From contig OZ038378.1 of the NCBI GenBank assembly GCA_964036045.1, positions 176,350,341 through 176,414,340 of the forward strand: DNA of 64,000 nucleotides. The letters run 5' to 3'. The notes under the pieces were generated by a model, which saw nothing but the letters and a program-made list of their open reading frames with translations, was not told where the DNA came from and made no database searches. The position numbers were made by a program, and so were the translations under genes. Of this stretch, positions 3,898 to 37,100 are shown piece after piece (the stretch's first letter is position 1; each line of letters starts with the position of its first letter). The DNA is from Eutreptiella sp. 'Long Island Sound 2002'. Taxonomy: Eukaryota; Euglenozoa; Euglenophyceae; Eutreptiales; Eutreptiaceae.

Positions 3898-4374
3898 ACA
3901 GCGGAGGCAACATTTGGCTAGAGCTGATGCCGAGGGCTTCTGCCACGGAACTGTTTTGCAAGTTGTGAACGATGCGCCATCTATGCCCCTCAGGCGGCTC
4001 GCAGTTCGACCTCTTGGTTCTTTTGATGTGCAGCATTTTTTGGGGCATAATATTTAGGCCAAATGACAATTTCAGGGGGGAAATCACAAAAAAAAACTTA
4101 TTTTCTGATTTTTTGGGGGTGAAAACAATTTTTTCCCCTGATATTTGTTGTTTTTGACGCACGCAAAATATTTGTCATTTAATATTTTCGTATGTTCCCC
4201 GGTTACGACCGTCCAGTACTCATTCCCCCGGTCAGCCTTTGCATTGGTCGATTGGGCTAAGGCTGGGACTCATCAGACCATCCCGCCAACACAATTGCCA
4301 TGTGAACGCAACCCGTGACTCCGAGCAACGCAGTCGCAGCATTTAAGGTTCATTCCCCTCTTGATTGCCTACAG
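3898..4374. other. Non-coding stretch upstream of the first visible cyclase exon
   Basis: Holds A- and T-rich runs near 4080-4150. It ends with a pyrimidine-rich tract and the acceptor CTACAG at 4369-4374, which opens the first visible cyclase exon. The true start codon and signal peptide of the cyclase must lie upstream, but I could not place them. Confidence 0.45.
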
Positions 4375-5081
4375 TATCCCTTGGACGTCGCCCTGACAGA
4401 CACCCCAGCTGCCCCGCTCGCAGCGCTGACGCTGCCAGTGCAGCGCACGCGGCGCGCGACCGTCCAAATGACCTTCAGCGCAAGTGACTGGGCCTACGTC
4501 GCGATCCTCGACCCCTCCCACGACCAGAACGAGCCCTGGGCAGTGGCAGGCGTCCGGCTGCACCCCACCCTCACCCTCATGGGGGCCGTCGCCGAAGAGC
4601 CCCCGAACTGCCGCTACACGACCCTCCACTGCCCGTCCCCACTGCTGGGCCCCGTCCTCGACCCGGACGCGCACGCGCTGTACTTGGCCGGGGCCGACGC
4701 CGGGCGGCTCCATTGGTTCACGACCACCGAAGTCATCAGCGTCAGCCCCGAATTCGTTGATATGTACAGCGATGACACGAACTTGACGGTGCATGGCGTG
4801 GGCTTCCGGCCCGGCATGCGCTGCTACATCGGGGGGTACGCGGTGCACACCGTGTACTGCAACGCCAGCACGCTGCACTGCCTGTCCCGGGCCCGGGACA
4901 TGCCGGAGGACCTGCGCGCCCCCTACTGCGGCGTCCCCGTGGAGGTGGGCCTGCCGGGCGGCCCCACCACCCAGAGCGACCGCCGCATCTTCCATCTGGC
5001 GCCCCCGCGGCTCACGGCCGTGTACCCCCCGACTCTGCTGCTGGGCCAGCCCAACTCAGTCTTCACCATCCACGGCCACGG
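4375..5081 (+). CDS. Adenylyl cyclase exon 1 (extracellular, first IPT/TIG repeats)
   Basis: Starts after CTACAG and ends before GTATGC with two bases of a Gly codon left over. It contains a Cys-containing N-terminal segment, then an IPT-like unit beginning VISVSPEFVD with a GxGF turn (HGVGFRPG), then the start of a second unit (LTAVYPPTLLLGQ). The second unit is completed in the next exon: FTIHGHG joins FSAVQPLGC. An earlier frame back to 4315 is open but lies upstream of the acceptor. Confidence 0.85.
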
Positions 5082-8000
5082 GTATGCCATCCTTCGCCCC
5101 CTATTCATTGCACGCACCATATCGGCCAGCCTCCACCTGCAAAGAGATTCCGCCGGCTCGAGAGGCCAAAGCACATCGCTTCTGCACACAGGATTTCAGG
5201 TTCGAATCCCAAGCATCGAAGGTTCTACTCAATCGCGGCCTCCGAACGCCCTCCTCTTTTTTCGCCATTCCCAACCGCCCTCCCCCCTCCCAAAGCTTGG
5301 GTTGGGGTGTTGGTATATAGTTCACTCCTGGACCCCCCCCCCCCCTCCCCCGCCCCCAAGCGTGACAGTTTACCACAGCGTCTGCGGGCGAGGAGCGGTG
5401 TCGGCTGCATCTGGACCACACAGTCCGGAGCATCTCCCCCCTGCTGCCTGGTTGACATCGACATGCCTCTCCCCAGCACCGAGGCCAGAGCCCTGCCCAA
5501 CGGCTCCTGAGTGCCAACATCCCCCCGGCAGCCCTTGACCACGGATGGGGTAGAGGGGGAGAGTCGCTGGTGGGTTGTTTCTAGAGTACCGGCAAAAGCG
5601 GCAACTAGCGTTTCTCGGGCAAGTACTGGCGGTAAGGATACGTTTGCAGTGCAGTGCGGGTCAGTTAAGAACGGCACTGAAGGGCCCCCTGCAGGGGCTC
5701 CGTGTCGGAGGTGGGGTATTTGTCCGGTTTGCGATTTTTATGCCTCGCATTCGCGAGTTTGAGGGGATGCATGCGCCTGTTGAGCCCATGCGTCCTTGAC
5801 TACTGTCACTGCGCCGGTCGCCCGTGCGCAGGGCAGTGCACTGGTACTGAATGGGCACTGGTAAAGCGCCTTGACACTGTGCCCGGGCCACGGGGTCCGG
5901 ATGCACTCTACCAAACGCCCACAGAAGCGCTGGGCATTATGAGGCGGCGAGGCGGTCCCGAAGCCCTGCGCCCCTCCGCAGGTTCAGCGCCGTGCAGCCG
6001 CTGGGGTGCCGCATCGAGGGCGACGGGGTCATGGCCGCGCACGCCGCCACGTTGGTGAGCGGGGTCGCTCTCCTCTGCCCCAACGTCCACGTCACGGCCC
6101 CGGGCCTACTCCGCATCTGCGTGTTCTTCGCCGGGGAAGCGGCGGAGTGCCGGTCGGACAGCGTGGCGGTCACGGTGCTCTACCCGACGATCGTGCGGGT
6201 CCGGCCGGCGTCCCGGTTCATCGGCGACGTCAGCCCCGTGAACGTCAGCGTGCGGAACTTCCTCCCGGACGACCGCGTGCGCTGCAGCTTCTCGCACAAC
6301 CTTTCCACCGACGACTTGGGGGCCGACTCGGCAACCACGACCCCAACCCTCGTCCGTCATCAGTTTGTCTTGTGCCCGGTCCCGATGGTGTCCGGGTCCC
6401 TGTTCTGGATCATCCGGCTCGCCTACACCGGCAGCGGCTACACTGAGACGTACGGCACACTGGAGCTCATGCTGCCCGAGGTCTGTGCCATGTGGCTTTT
6501 GTCCCCCCCCCCCCCCGCCCTGTGCCCTTTGCCGTGCAGGACATTGCTGAGTGGCAACCCCCGCCCCCCCTACGTGCCATCCAACACTTAGTGCATAGGA
6601 CTGTAGGTGTAGTGAACAAGCTTGACTCATCTGCCATCTTGTTTGCTACACAGTGAAAGGCGCCTACGACATGTCACCGAAGATCTCTTCTTCCATTGCG
6701 TTTGTCGTGTGACTTCCTTCTTTGCTCGCCAGCGCAGAGTCGTGCACACGCATCTGTTTTCCATGGCGTCGCCGGGGGGGGGGGTGGGGGGGGACAAAGT
6801 TTGTGTACCTCAAATCGGTCTCCAATTTCGGCCTCTCTAGTGAAGTCCATTTTCCCTGTTCTATTGTGGCGGGGGTGGGGGAGTTGGCCGTGGCTAGTCA
6901 GGCCCCAAATGACCCCCCGCCCCTTCTGTGTGGACCCCTCCTCCGTGTGGACCCGACGCAGTGAAACGGGGATAGTCCGGGGGCTCCGTTGGCACCACCG
7001 ACCGAGGGAAAGGAAGGGTGTGTGCGGGGGTGAGGATAGGCCAGACCGGTAGATCAAGGGCACTCGGCGGTCATAGGCCGCTGGGCGCCGCCACCGAGGG
7101 AGGGAAAGGGTTCGAGGAAAGGACAAGGGTAAGCGGCGAGGGGCCAATAGGCGCCGCCAGCTTCAGACGGCAATCCATCCAGGCGTCATGTGCCGTGTGC
7201 CCTGTGCTTTGTGTTCTGTGCCAGGCGCCCGGCGCTGCGCCCGCCGTGTGCCCCATGCCTTACGTGCCCACGTTCTTCAGGTCCTGTCGATGGCGCCCAC
7301 CGCCGTCTCGATCCTCGTCACAACCTCCGTCACCTTCACGATCCGCGGGTTCGGTGCGACCAACCGCACGGTTTTGTGTGGCTTCAGCGGGGACAACGGG
7401 GAGACGCTGTACTGGGCGGGGGACGTGCACGGGCGCGAGGGCATGTCCCTGCCCGGCATCTCAAGGGTCAGCTGCCGCGCCCCGCGGCAGCTCGGGACGT
7501 ACACGGTCCAGCTCCTCCTCTCGGCCCCCGTTGCGCTCCTCCCGGCGGCGGTCCCACTCCCATCGCTCGCCGTCTGCGACGGGGACTCGATCCCGGGCAC
7601 GGACGGGTCTTGCCGGCGGTGTGCGCATGGGGTAGCGCGTGTGCCCTATCTGCAGTGCAAGGTCTGTTGGGTGCGGCATTTGGAGGTGAAAGGGGGAGGA
7701 TGCCTCGGTGCGCCTGCTCAGCACGACAAAGGGGGGTTACGATTTCCGTGGCGTGCTGCAGTCTGCTGCTGTGTAGTGCCCGGTGCTGGCGGCCTGCCAC
7801 CTGCTGCTCGCTGCCACATGAGCGTGCTGCGGCTGCTTGCGTTTGCTTGCTGCTTAGCCGGTGTTTCCTGCTTTGTTTTGGCTTGTGATGGGCAGAAAAG
7901 TACAGGGGGGGGGGGGGGTTCGCGGCGGGAAATTTTCGCCATGGGATATTTCGCAGCGGGTTTATTTCGCAGTCCTGAATTTGCTGTGGGAAATTTTGCA

Positions 8001-12100: not shown

Positions 12101-13864
12101 TGTTGGGTCCAGAACTACACCCAAACGCCCTCCTGTAGCAGCGCCTTTGTCCAGGCAACGCACGGTGCTAAATCTACCATTTTGCGTCATTTTGCCATTG
12201 CTGAGGCCAAAGCGTGGCGGGGGCAGTGCGACTGTGGATGGTTGTGGTTGCGGAAGCTTGTGAAGGATGGCTGTGGGTTGTTGGGCCAGGGTTGTTGAGG
12301 ATTTCAGTAGCTGGTACAAGATGGCGCAAGGTTGAAGACAAGAGGCGGCATCAGGAGCAGTGCAGGGGAGGGGGGGGGGTGAGGTCCGCAATTTTTTTTG
12401 CAGTTTTTCGCGATTTTTCCGCAATTGCTTTTTGCTTGTCCCCCTCGCGCGCTTGTTGGTGCCCTGTGTGTCCCCTGTGCAGAGCTGTTGCACTTTGAGG
12501 CTTCCGGAGGTTTGGTTACGGCACCACAAGTTTTCCGCAATTTTTTCGCAATTGGATTTGGCAACCGCAACCCCCCCCCCCCCCCGGCCCTGATCAGTGG
12601 ATAAGCAGGACACCAATGATCCCTGCCTCCCTCTGTGAGCGTGTCGCGGGCCCCCTCTGCACAGGTCTGCTTCCCCCACGTGGACGACGCCATGGCCTTC
12701 ATGGCCCGCGTCCAGAGCGAGTTCCTGGAGCTCGACTGGCCCGAGGACATCCTCGAGGCCGACAGCTGCCGCACGCAGCTCGACGGCTGGGGGCGGAAGG
12801 TCTGGCGGGGGCCGCGCGTGCGCATGGGCGCCCACGTCGGGCCCGCCGACGTCGAGTACCAGCCGCACCTGCGGCGCGTCGACTACTTCGGCCCGACGGT
12901 GAACTGCGCCGCGCGGATCCAGGGCAAGGCTCACGGGGGGCAGTGCCTGATCAGCGGCGCCATGGCGGCGGACTGCGACCCGCAGCTGCAGCCGCAGCTG
13001 CAGGCGCTGGGCAACTTCCAGCTCAAGGGCATCCAGGACCTCGTCCCCGTGTTCGAGTTCGCGACGGTGGCCGGGCGCACGTTCGCCCCCATCGACGCCG
13101 GGCCTGGCGGCGCGGAGGAGGAGCCGCAGCCGCTGTGCGAGCAGACGTGCGGGACGTGCTTCCGGCCCCTCCAGTGCCGGGCCTGCAAGCCCTTCTCGCC
13201 GCGCGGGTCCTACGGGTCCCCCGGGGTCCAGTCGCCGCGGCACGTGCCGGAGTCCATGAGCCCCCGCTCCCGAAACTCCGGCGTCCGGTCGCAGGAGCCC
13301 CCCCCGGGCAGCCCCGGGCACCCCAGCGGGCGGGAGGAGGCGGGGATGCCGGTGCACCGGACGCCGAGCTGGCTGCGCAACTTCGGCCGGATCGGGAACA
13401 AGCTGACGTCGAGCTGGACGACGGGGAAGGACGACGAGCGGGACACCGGGGCCGAGTACCACGGGCCCAAGAACGTGGGCTCCACCCTCAGTCTCCTGCC
13501 GGGGCAGATGAACGCGGAGAGCGGCGGCGAGAGCGACCTCGAGAGGGCGCAGGACGCGGCGGGGGCGGAGTCCTCGACGGCCGCGGCGGCGCGGCGGCAC
13601 CCCTCGTCGGTGGGCAGCTCCAGTGCCCCGCCCCTCAGACACTCGCTCATCCAATTGGATGCGGACGGCAGGAGGATCTCGGTGGCGACGACGACCGGGA
13701 CGGCGTCCGACGCGGCAACACCGACGCTGCTGCTTGGCCCGGTCCGGGCCAACGGGACGGACAGTGCGCCGGCGCCCTCCGGTGGGGAGCGGAGGCCGCG
13801 GGTCCCGCCACTGCCCCTCAAGCCCCTGTTTGACGCGGACGGTGCTCAGAGTTCCAGCGGGTGA
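4375..13864 (+). CDS. Receptor-type adenylyl cyclase with IPT/TIG-like ectodomain, five visible exons
   Basis: Converts ATP to cyclic AMP at the plasma membrane. Exons are 4375-5081, 5982-6480, 7281-7631, 10056-10361 and 12665-13864. All junctions are GT-AG and in phase, and give 1020 residues from exon 1 to the stop. Residues 1-519 are extracellular, with about four IPT/TIG-like beta-sandwich repeats starting near 120, 211, 303 and 403. One membrane helix lies at 521-549. The class III catalytic domain spans 570-790 and is split by intron 4. Metal Asp575 (FTDIQDST) and Asp618 (KIIGDAF), Asn701 and Arg705 (NCAAR) are all present. Lys614 and Asp694 specify ATP, where a guanylyl cyclase would have Glu and Cys. 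The tail 800-1020 is low-complexity with a small Cys cluster. One helix and one catalytic domain imply a working homodimer, as in other protist receptor cyclases. The N-terminal exon(s) were not found. Confidence 0.9.
5982..6480 (+). CDS. Adenylyl cyclase exon 2 (extracellular IPT/TIG repeats)
   Basis: Follows acceptor CTCCGCAG and ends at GAG before GTCTGT in phase 0. Its first base completes the Gly codon from exon 1. It finishes one IPT-like unit and contains another (LYPTIVRVRPASRFIGD), with N-glycosylation sequons such as NVS and NLS. The upstream intron 5082-5981 carries a C-run at 5332-5344. Confidence 0.85.
7281..7631 (+). CDS. Adenylyl cyclase exon 3 (last IPT/TIG repeat)
   Basis: Follows TTCTTCAG. 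The best donor is GG before GTAGCG, giving 117 codons in phase 0-0. Encodes SVTFTIRGFGATNRTVLCGF, a typical IPT strand-turn-strand, and ends in a short Cys-containing juxtamembrane segment (VCDGDSIPGTDGSCRRC). The preceding intron 6481-7280 holds a G-run (6774-6798) and no gene. The following intron 7632-10055 holds an inverted-repeat element and a long (GT)n tract. Confidence 0.8.
7905..8554. mobile_element. 650-bp inverted-repeat element (MITE-like) in cyclase intron 3
   Basis: Bounded on the left by a run of 14 G (7905-7918) and on the right by a run of 9 C (8546-8554). Just inside both ends lies an inverted repeat of about 37 bp with only a few mismatches: TTCGCGGCGGGA...ATATTTCGCA at 7919-7955, mirrored at 8507-8545. 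A direct subterminal repeat is also present: GCAGCGGGTTTATTTCGCA at about 7953 and 8444, each followed by GTGGGAAATTT. No coding capacity is evident. The pattern fits a non-autonomous DNA transposon. I did not identify a clear target-site duplication. Confidence 0.7.
8245..8336. repeat. Duplicated palindrome inside the intron-3 element
   Basis: AACAGTTGAAGAACTGTT, itself an inverted repeat (7-bp arms, 4-base loop), occurs at 8245-8262 and 8319-8336. Between them, at 8270-8290, lies a perfect palindrome with 10-base arms (GCTGCAATTG / CAATTGCAGC) around one A. All three could form hairpins in single-stranded DNA or RNA. Confidence 0.8.
8555..9071. other. Cyclase intron 3, part downstream of the element
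   Basis: No exon-like sequence in the cyclase phase. The short open frames show no recognisable motif. Confidence 0.4.
9072..9152. repeat. (GT)n microsatellite, about 81 bp
   Basis: Uninterrupted GT units in cyclase intron 3. A second, shorter GT tract lies at 9226-9249. Confidence 0.97.
10056..10361 (+). CDS. Adenylyl cyclase exon 4 (membrane helix and first half of the catalytic domain)
   Basis: Follows CTCTCTCAG and ends at ATG before GTGTGT; 102 codons, phase 0-0. It encodes the hydrophobic helix from SVLLSWLVPAISVVG onward, a basic stop-transfer (HRWTIRSR), then VTLVFTDIQDST and EVKIIGDAFM, which carry the two metal-binding Asp residues and the adenine-selecting Lys. Confidence 0.92.
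10620..11020. mobile_element. About 400-bp inverted-repeat element in cyclase intron 4 (copy A)
   Basis: The left end contains GGTCCTTGTATGCGACACC followed by CCCAGC and a long C-run, then GGGTTTTGAAAGATAGTGG. The right end contains AAGTTTTGACAGATCGCTGG, a G-run and TGTCGCATCAGGACC. The right end is the inverse complement of the left: gctgggggg-tgtcgcat-aggacc is shared. A second copy with the same ends lies at 55253-55686. The interior has A/T runs and repeated CCCCGACCCC units and no coding frame. Confidence 0.65.
12665..13864 (+). CDS. Adenylyl cyclase exon 5 (second half of the catalytic domain and cytoplasmic tail)
   Basis: Follows CTGCACAG and runs 399 codons to TGA at 13862-13864. It carries VRMGAHVG, RRVDYFGPTVNCAARIQ (substrate Asp, transition-state Asn and Arg) and LKGIQDLVPVFEF, the usual end of the fold. 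The roughly 220-residue tail is rich in Ser, Pro, Gly and acidic residues. It has a CxxxC-x2-C-x5-C-x2-C cluster near 13135-13190. Very high third-position GC leaves long open frames on the other strand; these are shadows. Confidence 0.93.
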   Translation, partial: VCFPHVDDAMAFMARVQSEFLELDWPEDILEADSCRTQLDGWGRKVWRGPRVRMGAHVGPADVEYQPHLRRVDYFGPTVNCAARIQGKAHGGQCLISGAMAADCDPQLQPQLQALGNFQLKGIQDLVPVFEFATVAGRTFAPIDAGPGGAEEEPQPLCEQTCGTCFRPLQCRACKPFSPRGSYGSPGVQSPRHVPESMSPRSRNSGVRSQEPPPGSPGHPSGREEAGMPVHRTPSWLRNFGRIGNKLTSSWTTGKDDERDTGAEYHGPKNVGSTLSLLPGQMNAESGGESDLERAQDAAGAESSTAAAARRHPSSVGSSSAPPLRHSLIQLDADGRRISVATTTGTASDAATPTLLLGPVRANGTDSAPAPSGGERRPRVPPLPLKPLFDADGAQSSSG

Positions 13865-25316: not shown

Positions 25317-25550
25317 TAACTATACTTCCACTACTACTATACTTTCTGAGTGTCTAATTTTTTCCGGTTTTTGTGACAACCCTACTGTTGGGGCTCTGTC
25401 ATTTTTTTGTGCAACCGTGGAGCCTTTGCCTTTGTGTGCTCGCTGAGATTGACTTGTGGGCAGTTCATCTTTGGAAAAAACGATCCAACACCACGGTAAC
25501 ATGCAAGTACAAAGGGGAAAAGATGATTCAACACCTCATGTAACAAGCAG

Positions 25551-27815
25551 GTACCGTCCTTCAAAAGCTTTAAGGAGGCTCTTGCGCGAAGCCTGCAGTG
25601 CCTGCAATCCACGCTACCTAATCGCAGGCGCCAGGCCTCCTCCTGTCTGGCCAGTGCGTTGGAAGACGTGGTTGAACGATTTTACACCTCCGTTGCGCGC
25701 GCGTTCCCTAAACGCCTCTATGAGCCTGCCCTGAGGGCAGCGGGCGCAAAGCTTCCTTCAGAGCTGGTGTTCGGCGTTTTTGATAAGGGCACCGAGGTAC
25801 CCAACTTCATCTGCGTCAACGGCTGGCGCGAAATCCACCGTCGCATTTTTCTGGACACCCCCCGTTATAAGGAATTGTTGCGGTGTGCGGACGCGCGTGA
25901 TGCACGGTTTCTACTGCTTTGGCGGCTGGCGGATACACTCTCCCTGAGCTTTTTTGGTAAGTACTGTGCCTTCTCCATCCAACATGCGCTTTCCCTCCTC
26001 CCTGATGCCGCTGCCACCCAGTGCGCGTGCATGCACGGTCGCTGTCGACCATCTGCCGGCTGTAAGTCGCTTTATGCCCCGCTACTGGCGACTGCGTGCT
26101 CCAAGCTGAAAAAATTGGGACCGGGTTTTTGGGCGCGCGACCTTACCACTGCGCCCCCCCTGCATGATTTGCTCTCCCCCTCTATCCTTGCGCGACGTGT
26201 ACGAGGCACCCTGCGGTCTTGTCCTGATTTTCTCCCGCCTATGGATGGGCCTAGCGTCTCCACACTGCCCGCTGATAGTCCTGCCAGCTCTGTGGACTTC
26301 CCACGGACGCTGGCGCATGCACTCCCTGAGTTGTTTGGGAGCCCTGCCCCGCGTGTGTCCCGCTGCATGGTTAGGCCTTCGGCAGGTGCGCGGGCTCAGC
26401 GTTGTCGACCGCCGCGCGTGGGCGACCGCGTGTCCGCCTCTGTCGCGGGTGCCCACCAGTGTCTGGCTGGACATGGCCCAGCCTGCCCTGCTGGGTCGGA
26501 ACGCCCCCCTGCTACCTCAGCGCGAGACACGCCTGCAACCCCTGCTGAGCCCCTCCGTCGCCTAACGCCCCAAGTCCTTCTCTCTCTCTCTACTAGTGAT
26601 GCCTCCACTCTGCCGCCCCAACGGGCCTGTATACAATTGGGTTTGCGTGATGTTCCTGTGCGCATGGGAGTGCCTGATGTTGAGGTCCTCGTGAAGCATA
26701 AATACCGGGAGGATTTAGCTGACGCGCCGGTGAAAGTTCGAGAGATTTTGCGTCACGGTGGCCACCCTTTTCGTCTCGCGAATAGAAAGCTGTCTCGCTG
26801 CCTCTCGTTAGTTTGGAAGTTTGCTGAATCTTTACCGTCGTCTGTGGAAGTGGTGTCCATGGAAAATTTAAAGTCGTTTGTGCATAAACTACGCGGTGAG
26901 GGTGTAACGCCAGGGCTGTGGGGCGAATTAGATGTTGTGGAAATGTTTCCCAATATTCCGCGCCCTCTAGTGGTGACGGCGCTGGAGCACTATTGGCAGC
27001 TGCTCTGTGAAGCGCGTGGTTGTAGCTCTGATCGTCTGATTTTCCATGTCCACAAGGGTGGTCTTCGTTCACTGGACTACGTTGGTGCGCCTTCCCGTGA
27101 CTCCTCTTTCCATCATCTTTCGTTTCATGATGTGCTGTCCTTCGTTGTGTGGGACCTGACGTGGAATGACTGTTTTGTGCACTACAGTAGCGTGTTCTGC
27201 CAGTGTAAAGGAGTACCGATTGGTGGATCTGCGTCTGCCCAGTATGCCAGCATTGTCCTGATGTACCTGGAACGCAATGTGTCTTGGAGTTCCTTCCCAC
27301 CCTGCATGCGGTACCGTGACAACTATTTGTTTTACTTGCGTGCGTCCGACCCAGCACTGCTTCAGAACCCTGGTGAGTATCTGGCAGGTGTTTCTGAGCG
27401 CTTGCAGGATGCAGTTGGACTGCCGTTGCAGGTTGAAGGATGGGGTGAGTCCCTGGACTTTCTTGAGTCCACCCTGTGTTTTACGAATGGTCTGCCGGAT
27501 ATAGGCTTGAAGGTACCGCTGGCATTTGCTCCGCGGGGCTCGCCAACACCACCACAATTTGTGAAAATGGTCGACGCGCACAGCCCCAATGCTCCGCGAG
27601 TGCTGCAGTCCTTTATCCCTAACATTTTTCGAAAAGCTAACTGGTACCGTTTCGACGATCTCCGGTTTGTTATTAATATCGGACACATGATTCGCTTGCT
27701 GCGTACTAAAGGTTACCCGTCAGCGTGGTGGAGGCCCACCATGTTTGCTAAGGCGGCAGCTCTGGATATGAGCTGCCTGATGCATGTGGCGTGGGCCCTG
27801 GGTGCGGATGAGTAG
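25551..27815 (+). CDS. Reverse transcriptase with YRDN catalytic box
   Basis: RNA-templated DNA polymerase of a retroelement. The frame is open from 25527 and ends at TAG 27813-27815. A plausible acceptor (AACAAGCAG) sets the exon start at 25551, giving 754 residues. The first in-frame ATG is only at 26031, so the start may lie in an upstream exon. Residues 1-350 match nothing I know and include a CACMHGRC-x5-C cluster. Polymerase motifs follow in order: A, LDVVEMFPNIPR (Asp461); B, KGVPIGGSASAQYAS (from 553); C, YRDN (588-591) in place of the usual YxDD; then LQVEGWGESLDFLEST, like motif D. The second Asp of motif C is therefore Asn. No stop or frameshift interrupts the polymerase domain. 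The element could be active, or a conserved lineage with altered chemistry. Confidence 0.75.
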   Translation, partial: VPSFKSFKEALARSLQCLQSTLPNRRRQASSCLASALEDVVERFYTSVARAFPKRLYEPALRAAGAKLPSELVFGVFDKGTEVPNFICVNGWREIHRRIFLDTPRYKELLRCADARDARFLLLWRLADTLSLSFFGKYCAFSIQHALSLLPDAAATQCACMHGRCRPSAGCKSLYAPLLATACSKLKKLGPGFWARDLTTAPPLHDLLSPSILARRVRGTLRSCPDFLPPMDGPSVSTLPADSPASSVDFPRTLAHALPELFGSPAPRVSRCMVRPSAGARAQRCRPPRVGDRVSASVAGAHQCLAGHGPACPAGSERPPATSARDTPATPAEPLRRLTPQVLLSLSTSDASTLPPQRACIQLGLRDVPVRMGVPDVEVLVKHKYREDLADAPVKVREILRHGGHPFRLANRKLSRCLSLVWKFAESLPSSVEVVSMENLKSFVHKLRGEGVTPGLWGELDVVEMFPNIPRPLVVTALEHYWQLLCEARGCSSDRLIFHVHKGGLRSLDYVGAPSRDSSFHHLSFHDVLSFVVWDLTWNDCFVHYSSVFCQCKGVPIGGSASAQYASIVLMYLERNVSWSSFPPCMRYRDNYLFYLRASDPALLQNPGEYLAGVSERLQDAVGLPLQVEGWGESLDFLESTLCFTNGLPDIGLKVPLAFAPRGSPTPPQFVKMVDAHSPNAPRVLQSFIPNIFRKANWYRFDDLRFVINIGHMIRLLRTKGYPSAWWRPTMFAKAAALDMSCLMHVAWALGADE

Positions 27816-28430
27816 CAGCTACCTAATCTGTGTGTGCCCATGACATGAGTTTTCCACCTCGGGATTAGGCGCTGTGATTTGTTGCACTTTGGTGTGGGGC
27901 TGGTTTTACCGAACTCTATGCCGTGTGCATGACACTTCATAGCCACTATCTCTCCTCGCTTGCAGAAATTGATCAATCGCCTGTTCCTTCCGCTTTTTGT
28001 TTCGCTGGGCTGTGGGTCTGCTGTGCCCTGTCTGTACCCTGTCAACGGTGAAACACGAGTGGTGGAAACGTAGGCGGCCAGTCGACGCAAGTGAGTGATC
28101 GGAGGTACCAACAAGGAAAAAATATTCTGTATAGAAAGCAACATGCGGATGCACCAATTAGTCCAAACAAAATGATCCAAAAATTTAACGTCCCAAAAAA
28201 AATGAAAAAGGAAAGGAAAAAAGGGAAATGGTTCAAAGTTCAGGCAAGACACATACAATTGATCCACAAGAGCACAAGAGCATTGCATTTCTTTGCTTGT
28301 TGCTTGCACGTTACACTACACCACATACACTTTGAACAAATTGGTGGCTATTGGTAAATTGGTAGTTTGTAAAACCTTTTTTTTCCGCCGCGCAACAGGC
28401 ATCGGGGGGGGTTTACTCTCTCGAATAATC

Positions 28431-31109: not shown

Positions 31110-34100
31110 GTAAGGCATGCTGTGTGGGAACGCATTGGATTGACTCCTATATGGCAACTCCCTGGAGTAAGGGAATCATGGAGAAGGGGCTGAGTCTCAT
31201 TGGAGGAGTGCCCTCCGGACCCCCTCCCCTTGATCTGTCTCCGGTGGAGATGTGAAGCCTGCCCTGTGACCACGGCGCGGCAGAGGGACCGGGCCGGTCG
31301 GGCTGTGTCTGCTCACCTGACCTGACCTGACCTGACCGGACCGGACACAATCATATTAAGGAGGGCAGGCCTTACAAGGGCGCTGATGCGCCGGGAAGAG
31401 CTGAATATTATTAGGACTCAGGGTTTATGGCAAACCTCCCTGCGCACAATCAGCCTGTTCCCCAAAATGCTTGAACCCTGAACATGACAGTCCTTCCCAC
31501 ACACATCACTCCCCGCACAAATTACACAAATTTCACAAACAATCATGTCACACAAAAGAAATGGCACTGGACACCAGTTGTACACCACACACAACCAGCT
31601 TTTATGCACCCCCCCCCCCCCCGCTACTCACGGTGTGGGCCACAGCCACACCAGCAACACCAAGGGGCAAGATGTCTGGAAATGCAGCAGACCACCTCAC
31701 TTTTTGGTGCGTTGACCCCGGTTTCGGATACACGTTGGTCATAACACTTCGTAATTCGGAACCTGCTGTGGTTAACTTGAGAGCGCCCGCCCCTCGTGTT
31801 TGTGGGAACGACCGCATGTGATGCCTGCTGGCGCAAACAGCGGAGTGCACGCCATGTGGGCAGAATGCTGCCATGGCGAGGCGCCGAATCGCCATTCCAC
31901 TCTGACCCAGAAAACTGCGCTTCCCCCTCTCCCCTCCCAATCGACACAAACGACCTCGATCAACAAGCAGGTCCCACGACAGACAAAAGCACTGGCCACT
32001 GGTTGTGTTACACGCCAACCAACCAGCATTACTGGAACCCCGACCACCCCAGTCTCTCCTCATTTGATCGTGCTGATGATACTCGCAGGCAATAGGATGT
32101 TGGTATTCCATACGTGGCTGCGAACTTTTGGCTTTTGGCACTACGTACGACCCTTTGTTCCCTGCACAAATATCCTCCTTACAACGGCCCATAAGCAGCT
32201 GCAGCAGCTGTTCTAATCCGTCGCCCTGCGATGGTCCTCCGCTTCCACTCCTGGACACCTGGCCCCTCGCAGGAGGTGTGAGTGCAAGGAGAGCCATTGC
32301 CGGAGACGTGTGGGGATGTATGAGCCATTTGATGACACGATGCAAGCAAAGGCAGGGCTGAGAACAGGGTCAGGCCTGGGTCTCCACAGAAACCCTGGCC
32401 ACGTCAGTGTCTGGTGCCCGCATCGGTGCAACATCCCGGGCTAGACTGTTTTGGTAGGCCTTGGGCGGGGGGGCTATTTTTCCGTGGCATGGAGCCAGGT
32501 GCAGGGCCAGGGGAGGGTCAGGGCTACAAACTCGTGCAGGGGCAGTTGTGCGTCCAGTTGCCCCATTTTACTACACCGAATTCCCCTTTCAGATTACAAC
32601 ATCTGAGCCATCCACAGCTGTGGCTCCCCCATCCACAGCGCCCGCGCAGTCTTCCATGGATCCTTTTCAGTCTTCCACAACCCCCATTCAGTCTGCCACA
32701 GCCCCGATGCATCCTTCCATGACCTCGGCCGAAGCTATTGCCAGCTTGATGCACTTTACGCGGCTTGCAATGGCCTCTGGTAAGCCTTCCACAGTCCCCT
32801 ATCAGCGTTCCACGGCATCAGGCCAGTCTTCCTTCACCTACAGTGAGCGTTCTCCTGCCGCAAGCCAGAGTGTGACAGCCCCAAGTCAGTCTTCTGCCCC
32901 AGGTCAGTTGTGCACATCCCCTGGTCAGCGCTCCAAGGCTGTTGTTCAGTCTTCCATGGCCCCAAGCCAGCCCTCCGCAGCCCCAACTCCACAGCTCACA
33001 ACCCCAGTGCAGGCACCCATGCCTGAATGTTCCATGGTTCCAAAGCAGCCCGCCACAGCAGCTACTCAGCCTTCCAGAACCTCTACAACCCTGATCCAAC
33101 CCCCCCCTTCCCCACCTCAGCCTTCCACAGCCCCACCTCAGCCTTCCACAAACTCTACAACCCCGATCCAGCCCTCCCCTTCCCCACCTCAGCCTTCCAC
33201 AGCCCTGGCTCAGCCTCCCATGCTCCCAAATCAGCTTCCTGCAGCCCCACTTCAACCCTCCACAGCCTCCAGCCGCCCCACAACAACTCAGTCTTCTGAA
33301 GCCCCTGCTAAGCCTTCCGTCGTTCGAATTCAGCCATCCACCCTCCAACATCAGTCTTCCACAACTTCCAGTCATCCTTCCACAGTCCTAACGCAACCTT
33401 CCACAGGCCAAAGCCAGTCTTTTGCAATCTCCACTGAGCCTGTCAAATTCCCAGTTCAACCTTCCACACCCCAAATTCAGCCCTTCATACCCTCAACTCA
33501 GCCTCTCAGAGCCCCAGTCCAGTCGTCAGCAGCTGCATTTCAGACTCCCACGACCCTGTCAGCCTCAACCGTACACCAGCTATCCACAATCCCCAATCGG
33601 CAACGTGCAAACTCTCTTCAGCAACCTACAACCACGTCTGCAGCCCTGCCTCAGCTATCCAAGATTGCACCAAACCCATCCCCAGCTATAGTTCAGGCTC
33701 CAACAACTCAATCACAGCTTTCCAGAGGCCCGTCTCAGTCACAGCAAACCGCACATCAGTCACGTGAAGTCCCATTTCAGCCAACAGCAGCCTCATTTGC
33801 GCCACCCCTAGCTGCACCACAGCTTTCCCATGGCCAGCATCCCGCAACCCTGCCTCAGTATCAGCAACCCACAGTCCCCTTTCTGCAATCCACAGCCATA
33901 CCAAAGCCATCGCATGCCACATTTCAGCCTTCCTCGGCTGTGTTGCAACCCTCCATGGCTCAAACTCAGTCACCGACAAGCATGCAGCAGTCGTGCCAAA
34001 CCTTGCATCAGCCACCTGCAGCTGCAATTCACTCCTTCACAGACGCAGTCCAGCGTGCACACACCTCAACTCACCCACCACCAGCGTCTCAGCTTTCAGT

Positions 34101-37100
34101 AGCTGTCAATCAGACTTCATTTCTGCCAGCCCCAGCTGTCCTTCAGCCTTCTATGGCCTCAACTCAGCCCTGCACAGTACCGCGTCAGTCATTTCAATCT
34201 GTGCATCCAGCTGCCCCTCTAATGAGCAGAGTGGAGCCTCCTGCTGATGTCTTGGGACATTACAGCAACCAAGGCCCAACAACGCCTTCCCCTGCAAAGG
34301 TAATGTTGCATGCTACAAGGCATCGGGGATACATTGCTATTTCAAAACTGCTTGTGGGAGGGGTTGGTCTTCAGAACGAACGAATGGTGTGCATTAGACC
34401 ACTTCATCGCGCTATCTTCTTCTGAGGCGTGACCGGGACACCTGGGCATGACGAGCCTACAGGTACTAAAGGTCCAAAGGTACAAAAAAATAAGAGCAAC
34501 AACGTTCAGCAGCGACCCAAGGAACCCATCGCCTGCTCCAGGGTTGATGCCACTCGCTTACTGCTCGCCCCAATGGCCACTTCCTGGCCACCCACCAGCC
34601 CCGGATCGAGAGACAGGGTCTGCAGGGGACCCAAGTTGCTCCGGATCAATGCAATCACAGCTCAAATTGCAAGGTTCCTGAGGGTTGGGGTCCAATATTG
34701 CACCCATTAGCACCCCCATGACCGACATACAATTCTGTTTGTCATCAAAGCCACATACATATTGAGTGCCAAAGGCAGCGAATGTTGGGATGATGCATGG
34801 GGGTAGACAGAGGCATTGCACGACATATGCACATCCGTTCGCAGGAATTGCTGCTGGTGGACATCGAACGCGACGACCCTCTGGACCCCACCAGCGGCAT
34901 GATGCAGTTTGCATTTTGTGATGCCAAGGTCCAGTGCTCCCATGCATGCTTGTTTTTTGTTCAGGAATTGGTATTCGGCCCAGAGCATTGCTTTCATTCC
35001 ACGTTTTCATTGGGGCCCACAGACCCAAAAGGTGCATGTGATAGGTTGGTACACAGATGATCATTTTGCATCCGAACACCACCAGTTTGGGACCGGGGAA
35101 AGCAGCACTATGGGATTATTTTGTGTCTACCCCAATAGCAATTGAGTCAGCAGGTCTGAGGCTGCGATGGCATAGTTTGGATTTCATGTTTTTTATGGTA
35201 CACCAACCAGATTCATCGACGCCCAAACCATTTGTGTGCGCTTTGTGTTCTGCGCTAGTTCCTTACTATCAGTGTCTCTCCCTGTGGCAGTACATTTCTT
35301 CCTTCCAAAATCCCTACCCTCAGGCCCTATTATTCCCTTTCTTTGCCCAAACCTGTTGCAGTGGGTTGCAATGAGACTTGAATTGGGAGAGGGCAGTTTT
35401 TACAAACTTAGACCCCTTCCACATCAGTTTCTTTCCTTTCCCCTTTAACTGGAAATATTCCTAATGGAAGGTCACACATACATTCCACGGTCCACAGCTG
35501 GTTTCAAATGCCTAATCTGCCCTCTAAATGGCACGTGAATGATCTTTGGATCTAAGGTTTGAACGTGCGGCTGTGTTGCCAATTCGAGCGACGCAGTGTG
35601 CCAAGGGAGTGACTGCGTGCCCGATGGTTGATTGGGGGTGGTCTGTGCTTGGGGGCGCTTTGCCCCCAAATGACATTCTGGCAGACTTCGATTTTTTCGT
35701 GTTTTCGATGAGAAAACCCTTTCCCCAGCTGTCGGTTATCTCCCAGCCAACAATCGGGGAAGGGTTTGACTTTCTTCCTTTCTTCCTGGCAGTAAGCTGT
35801 TCTGATCACGTTGGTTGCCTGGCTAAGATGAAGTGTAGTATCTGTTCTTATGGCGCACCGTGTTACACTTGCACGTGGCATTGCTGTTAGGAGGAATGCG
35901 AGGCCGGGCAGTGGTGGTGAGGGCATCCTGTCACGGGATCACCGTGGAAGTAAGGAATGGACCCTCGATGCAGAAACTGCCAGGCTCGCTGAGCGTCACC
36001 GTTGGGGGCAGCTGAGGACATGGACCCTCCAGCACGGGGAGTGCACTGCAGGGCAGGGCTGTGGGAAAAAGACATCTATGTCCTTTTTTTTTTTTGCTTC
36101 TTTCTTGTCAAGACAGCCTCAGACCTCAGGTCAGGATAGCAGTTAACCGCCGGTGGCTGTTGGTCACCGACGGTCGTCGATAGTCAATCGACGCAGGTTG
36201 GCTGGAAATCGAGATACTGACTGTCAGTAGACCAATCTTTTTCTTGAGGTCAGGGTCAGCTCAACATATCAAATATCGGTTGCCACTCTGAGCACATGGG
36301 CACCCTCATGTCGGCCGATTGTGATGGAACTGCCGAACATTGCAGCATATGCATACCAGGACGTGCATGTGTGGAGCGCTTTGTGACCTGCGTATGGCCT
36401 CATGTCGTGTAACAGGTGCTGTCTAAAGCCCGCGGCCACGCCAAGAGCAGTATTTCGGCACAGGAGATCGAAGTGCAGTGGTGCATAGCATCCAACGGTG
36501 CGTAGTGTGCACTGTAGTGTGTAGCGGAGATGTAGTATTCGGGATGTGGTTCCAAAGACGTGGTTCCCGGAATGTGGTATTGGGATTGTTTTTTCAGGGA
36601 TTATGGATTGGGCACTGTAGAGGAGGTGGTACTGGGGACGGGGCTCCAGGGGTGTGGCACTGATGAGGTGGTACTTGGGCTGTGGTACTAAAGATGTGGT
36701 ACTAGAGATGTGGTCCAGGGTTGTACTAGGCATGTGGTCCAGACGGTAGGGCACGTGGTGCGAGGGATGTTTTCTTTCCAGAATTGTGGTATGAGGGCCG
36801 TGGCTCCAGGGAGGTGGCGCCGGGGAAATTGCACTGGGTGTGGTACTGGTCCAGGGATGTAGTGCTAGGAATCATGGGAATCCGTTGGCCAGCCGCGTCA
36901 GCTCGTGCGGTGCCAGAGAGCGTGTTCCATTGTGAGCATTTTCAAAGTAGACACCACTAGGTAACCCAAACAGCGCTGTGCAGGGATATCCTAGCACTAG
37001 CCCTCCCCAACCATGTATTAGAACGGCTGTACACCGTAGGAGGAGGGGGGGTACCTCCCCCTGACCCCCCTACCCCCCCCCTTGACCCCCCCCCTCCCTC

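Follow-up and report, generated by a model that had tools for sequence, protein, structure and literature searches.

Penelope-like elements normally carry YxDD in motif C of their reverse transcriptase (RT). Within this group, Chlamys and Naiad were reportedly described by Craig et al. in 2021 as Penelope-like elements with an N-terminal GIY-YIG endonuclease. In both, the nuclease lies N-terminal to the RT and is joined to it by a linker with a CxC motif, an insertion-in-fingers domain sits between motifs A and B, and a hammerhead ribozyme is absent. Canonical Penelope elements combine a telomerase-like RT with a C-terminal GIY-YIG nuclease (PMC11167929, PMC3846280) in a single ORF (PMC11167929). 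Their copies show 5′ truncations, target duplications, tandem arrangement and pseudo-LTRs, and a hammerhead ribozyme occurs in an anole Penelope element (same two sources). Chlamys elements are reported from the brown alga Ectocarpus (PMC12477816).

According to PMC3394715, every RT has Asp at the second Asp position of motif C, and birnavirus RNA polymerases have Asn there, which still binds an ion. Laboratory mutants of yeast elements carry the same substitution. The D214N enzyme of Ty3 still polymerizes in vitro, at reduced processivity, and that of Ty1, D211N, does so with kpol lowered 223-fold (PMC5371799, PMC2148107). Transposition is lost in both; for Ty1, suppressor mutations within the RNase H domain bring back 5-10% of it. 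A search of the open literature found no natural YxDN or otherwise changed second motif-C Asp in RTs.

The window analysed here is a 64,000-nucleotide stretch of the genome of Eutreptiella sp. 'Long Island Sound 2002' (contig OZ038378.1). Comparison with related loci by blastn delimits on its forward strand, at 25550..28132, a 5′-truncated copy of what is likely a Penelope-like retrotransposon, consisting of the remainder of ORF2 and a 3′ untranslated region. The 3′ part of ORF2 (25551..27815, +) is open, with 754 codons ahead of the stop, and contains the RT N-terminal region, a linker and the RT; the ORF listed inside it starts at a TTG at 25659 and encodes 718 aa. The preliminary description had placed motifs A, B and C in order in an open frame, with R-Y-R-D-N as motif C, and the sequence bears this out. 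The alignment puts motif A, LDVVEMFPNIPR, at 26928..26963 (+), with the catalytic Asp codon at 26931-26933, and motif B, KGVPIGG, at 27207..27227 (+), about 93 residues from motif A. Motif C, RYRDNYL, occupies 27309..27329 (+), with the Asn codon AAC at 27321-27323, and is followed by an aligned FLES segment (27459..27470, +), which we take to resemble the FLD segment of Penelope RTs. The 3′ untranslated region (27816..28132, +) reaches the 3′ end shared with related loci and includes GTCGACGCA at 28081..28089 (+), a 3′-terminal motif shared between subfamilies. The copy is incomplete: its truncation junction, near 25550, coincides with the start of the reported frame, and the nuclease region is missing because of this truncation. 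The part ahead of the RT, which had been called unlike any familiar domain, proved to be a family-conserved region (25551..26150, +; boundary approximate, residues 1-200 of the query being matched in many copies), partly alignable with telomerase in the structure model, plus a Pro/Ala-rich linker.

Elsewhere in the window, whose CpG observed/expected ratio is 0.63, an ORF with an IPT/TIG domain (PF01833, E 6.4e-6) lies in a G+C-rich stretch at 4315-5538 (+), and the frame at 12635-13864 (+) reads by eye like a nucleotide cyclase catalytic domain. A 654-codon low-complexity frame at 32461-34425 (+), rich in Pro, Ser, Thr and Gln and with 21- and 72-base repeats, has no Pfam match. CCCTAA repeats stand at the start of contig C2 and are absent from both ends of C1 as read.

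Sequence profiles recognize this RT poorly. The window copy matches no Pfam family at E<=1, while RVT_1 matches weakly in 4 of 12 other family members (best E 0.0021) and in two of three full-length copies, where the match spans the B-C region with an E of about 0.05. Neither the RT nor the nuclease region had a meaningful counterpart in a sequence search of the PDB, and PHROGs yielded chance matches only. The AlphaFold2 model of the window frame has a mean pLDDT of 57 and a pTM of 0.50 overall; its N-terminal region is helical at moderate confidence, and the RT part mostly reaches a pLDDT of 67-93, with low values in loops. Telomerase RTs are the top matches of this model among solved structures, at 8-12% identity, and the alignment starts at model residue 92, thereby reaching into the region before the fingers. 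Given this fold match and the model quality of the RT part, the motifs belong to a real RT. Two other candidates were rejected. TAL-effector matches in a PDB profile search reached their scores by adding up weak repeats, and no individual stretch passed. A second, upstream RT domain had been considered from the strings ALGSPMGG and YVDN; it was dismissed because the former sits in the ORF2 N-terminal region of unknown fold and the ORF with the latter looks by eye like a host protein of an unrelated kind.

The replacement in motif C is a property of the family. In the 2.28-Gb genome that contains the window, the pattern RYRDN[YF]L occurs at 454 sites (208 + 246; reversed-pattern control, 3), against 3 sites for RYRDD[YF]L (reversed-pattern control, 9), and all three of the latter lie in frame-broken relatives, with the match divided between two frames. 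Among loci fetched regardless of motif C, RYRDx[YF]L has Asn in 22 of 23 cases and Ile in one (L028), a count that omits seven sites (4 Asn, 3 Asp) from pattern-fetched or tandem-row loci and is blind to sites with other changes in the motif. YRDN is also present in all 28 aligned RT domains of our tree (18 from the window and genome loci, two from pattern-fetched loci and eight database proteins), although pairwise identity falls as low as 0.35, and the same 28 show no variation at the Asp of motif A or at the first Asp of motif C. Both AAC and AAT encode the Asn. The genome-wide count and the conservation of YRDN had been among the proposed checks, with close YRDD homologues as a refuting observation; the outcome rules out a point mutation or simple decay and upholds a retroelement lineage with YRDN fixed. 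We regard the replacement of this catalytic residue throughout a family of mobile Penelope-like elements as real and well supported. Protein searches at E<=0.001 returned at least 3, at least 7 and at least 2 proteins. The database protein P0011 and a copy in the window's genome are 100% identical, so at least some of the database matches derive from the same species, and they do not demonstrate a wide host range. Two peptide patterns run against viral contigs and two against prokaryotic contigs gave no relatives.

Longer relatives reveal what the window copy lacks. ORF2 is open for 1,523 to 1,664 codons in L016, L017, L019, L021 and L023, and for 1,299 in L025. In the long frames among these, about 470-510 residues of unknown fold are followed by a GIY-YIG region, a CPC motif and the RT. 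By motif and order, GIY-YIG and RT share one ORF in seven loci (L016, L017, L018, L019, L021, L023 and L025). GIY-YIG, CPC and RT follow one another in this order in the eight frames with both motifs (L016-L019, L021, L023, L025 and L026); in L026, as in L022, the RT falls in the next frame. Within the subfamily of the window copy, a longer relative in L012 has the nuclease region and CPC upstream, spread over several frames. When the nuclease regions were cut out, PF01541 was the sole Pfam match in 9 of 9, with a best E of 0.007, below the curated cut-off; the member shown scored E 0.018 and 15.8 bits against a cut-off of 22.6. No GIY-YIG match appeared when three full-length copies and the proteins P0010 and P0011, which contain that region, were scanned whole. 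The model of P0010 has a mean pLDDT of 32 and is of no use, which leaves the nuclease without structural support.

Upstream of ORF2 lies a separate ORF1 of 682 open codons (668 from the first Met), assembled from L032 plus L019. A CCHC knuckle is found in ORF1 of L015, L019 (with L032), L021 and L022, and Pfam returned a chance-level match only. In the five loci from two subfamilies in which this ORF1/ORF2 junction is present (L018, L019, L021, L022 and L023), ORF2 occupies the −1 frame relative to ORF1, and the heptamer C CCA AAC stands directly ahead of the stop of ORF1. Programmed −1 frameshifting at this heptamer is offered here as a suggestion from sequence, because the junction is a C-run in L017, L025 and L026 and leads to the +1 frame in L016, and because folding downstream of the possible slip site was less stable than that of shuffled sequences (z +0.76 and +1.10). 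Rfam matches up to E 1 in eight loci and the window copy included no hammerhead ribozyme; the families that did appear (miRNA families, an IRES, lncRNA and a histone stem-loop) were all below their gathering scores and were rejected.

The copies have common 3′ ends and staggered 5′ ends. The window copy and L009-L013 share a 3′ end at window positions 28131-28135, beyond which their sequences diverge (blastn). The window copy ends at 25550 on its 5′ side, and element sequence runs on beyond this point in L010 and in the second L012 copy. Further 5′ ends lie at 25882 (L009), about 26539 (first L012 copy) and 26657 (L011). A duplication may account for the L013 boundary at 26867, because L010 and L013 are 98.4% alike over 2,604 bases including the 3′ flank. 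A 16-bp repeat, AAGGTGTAGCCCATGC, flanks L011, abutting its 3′ end and lying 7 bases from the aligned 5′ end, and L009 sits between G-rich repeats. No target duplication was found for the window copy, the flanks of which have just 7 bases in common, and none of the 3′ ends inspected in this comparison shows a poly(A) tail. Nine ends, representing about five subfamilies (that of L023 was placed by eye), were compared for a terminal motif: eight have GTCGACGC 29-57 bases from the 3′ end, and the ninth, L016, has GACGACGCAA. This 3′-terminal motif may act as an RT signal. Copies also form rows. At G000:C3:69645518-69667203, four YRDN sites in one orientation lie head-to-tail in 7.2-kb steps (L035 represents the first two units, with broken RT frames), and head-to-tail rows of 6.4-6.5 kb occur on C22 and C25. 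Self-comparisons of 14 loci, many of them short of the element's 5′ end, gave no clear pseudo-LTR.

Two further observations concern the flanks. By eye, one 31-base sequence (GGGATGCAGCGTTC...) adjoins the 3′ end of the element in L020 and L021 and the 5′ end of the first L012 copy, where its orientation is opposite; it may mark a preferred target repeat. Downstream of the L020 and L021 copies lies a 634-codon frame (L020:340-2241 and L021:379-2280, −) with a weak phytanoyl-CoA dioxygenase match (PF05721, E 0.013) below the cut-off.

The family has probably been active recently, to judge by its youngest copies: the P0011 search found four that are 98-100% identical to it, each with a stop-free frame of 1,408-1,423 codons, and the window copy is 98.7% identical to L009 over 2,251 bases. 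The RT domain of the family is under purifying selection. By the Nei-Gojobori method, dN/dS is 0.045-0.17 in most pairs with measurable dS (for example, 0.067 for L019 and L023, and 0.074 for L017 and L025), 0.21 in one nearly saturated pair and 0.27-0.35 in three young pairs; synonymous sites are saturated in most between-subfamily pairs.

We consider it probable that the window holds a 5′-truncated Penelope-like copy whose RT works with two catalytic Asp residues and a fixed Asn. Longer relatives encode an ORF1 protein with CCHC and an ORF2 protein with an N-terminal domain of unknown fold, a GIY-YIG-like nuclease, CPC and RT. The nuclease would probably nick the target, and the freed 3′-OH could then prime reverse transcription from the 3′ end of the element; early termination would leave 5′-truncated copies such as that in the window. 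The RT probably polymerizes by means of two Asp residues, one in motif A and the first in motif C, and has a fixed Asn at the second motif-C position. We infer the nuclease and polymerase activities of the family, and equally how ORF2 is translated. The wider proposition, that this is a natural mobile clade of telomerase-like RTs in which the second motif-C Asp has permanently become Asn, in a two-ORF Penelope-like element that may use retrovirus-like −1 frameshifting, seems to us evenly balanced.

Since the Asp-to-Asn change at this position kills Ty1 and Ty3 transposition, the YRDN RT could itself be catalytically dead, the copies having been mobilized in trans by an RT that belongs to a different element of this genome. 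However, no intact RYRDD partner of the family was found in the genome, many copies retain long open ORF2 frames, and the Asn has been held through synonymous codon changes in a domain under purifying selection. A dead RT would not be expected to remain so constrained, and we therefore judge this explanation improbable. An active YRDD enzyme might alternatively arise by adenosine-to-inosine RNA editing, with AAY read as GAY, and adenosine deamination would convert AAC and AAT to exactly GAC and GAT. Nothing in the analysis points to editing, however, and genomic GAY would be expected to arise and persist in open copies were Asp the functional state, yet is seen only in the three broken ones; we give this idea very little credence. 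The least credible reading is the host-adopted polymerase gene raised in the preliminary description. Long open frames under purifying selection would suit such a gene, but a single copy at a conserved place is not what was found: one protein search gave at least 71 matches and another 48, the motif recurs at 454 sites, and the copies lie at unlinked positions and have staggered 5′ ends, common 3′ ends and, in one case, a target-site duplication. A mobile element with a working RT is our preferred explanation.

The residual activity of the Ty1 and Ty3 mutants, together with the birnavirus Asn, indicates that Asn is chemically tolerable at this position, and a lineage in which it is fixed may carry compensating changes. 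One speculative candidate, picked out in the alignment, is the Glu three residues past the motif A Asp (ELDVxEMF), which is present in 26 of the 28 RT rows, the exceptions being L012 and P0003. PMC3394715 describes the second motif-C Asp as invariant in RTs, and its change to Asn ends transposition in Ty1 and Ty3. A lineage that spread with Asn fixed would be a working alternative found by evolution. The YRDN family would then provide a natural test of the role of this Asp in metal binding, pyrophosphate release and processivity, and of what compensates for its loss.

Architecture and fold make it likely that the family belongs to the Penelope-like elements. It has a telomerase-related RT, with a GIY-YIG region in the same ORF; it departs from the group in having ORF1 upstream in place of a single ORF, and YRDN in place of YxDD. 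The term "undescribed clade" in the preliminary description goes too far, as Penelope-like elements that carry their GIY-YIG nuclease N-terminally have the same layout. Telomerase RTs share the palm and thumb fold with the family RT, whereas the latter belongs to a mobile element, is accompanied by a nuclease and has Asn in motif C. The Ty1 D211N and Ty3 D214N mutants have the same Asp-to-Asn change, but they are laboratory mutants that do not transpose, while the Asn of the family is its natural, fixed state. With canonical Penelope elements, the family shares the telomerase-like RT, the GIY-YIG nuclease, 5′ truncations and a target duplication, and some of its copies stand in head-to-tail rows; it differs from them in its N-terminal nuclease, its two ORFs and YRDN. 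As for Chlamys and Naiad, the GIY-YIG region upstream of a telomerase-like RT, the CPC linker and the lack of a detected hammerhead all correspond, whereas YRDN, the separate CCHC ORF1 and the long ORF2 may set the present family apart.
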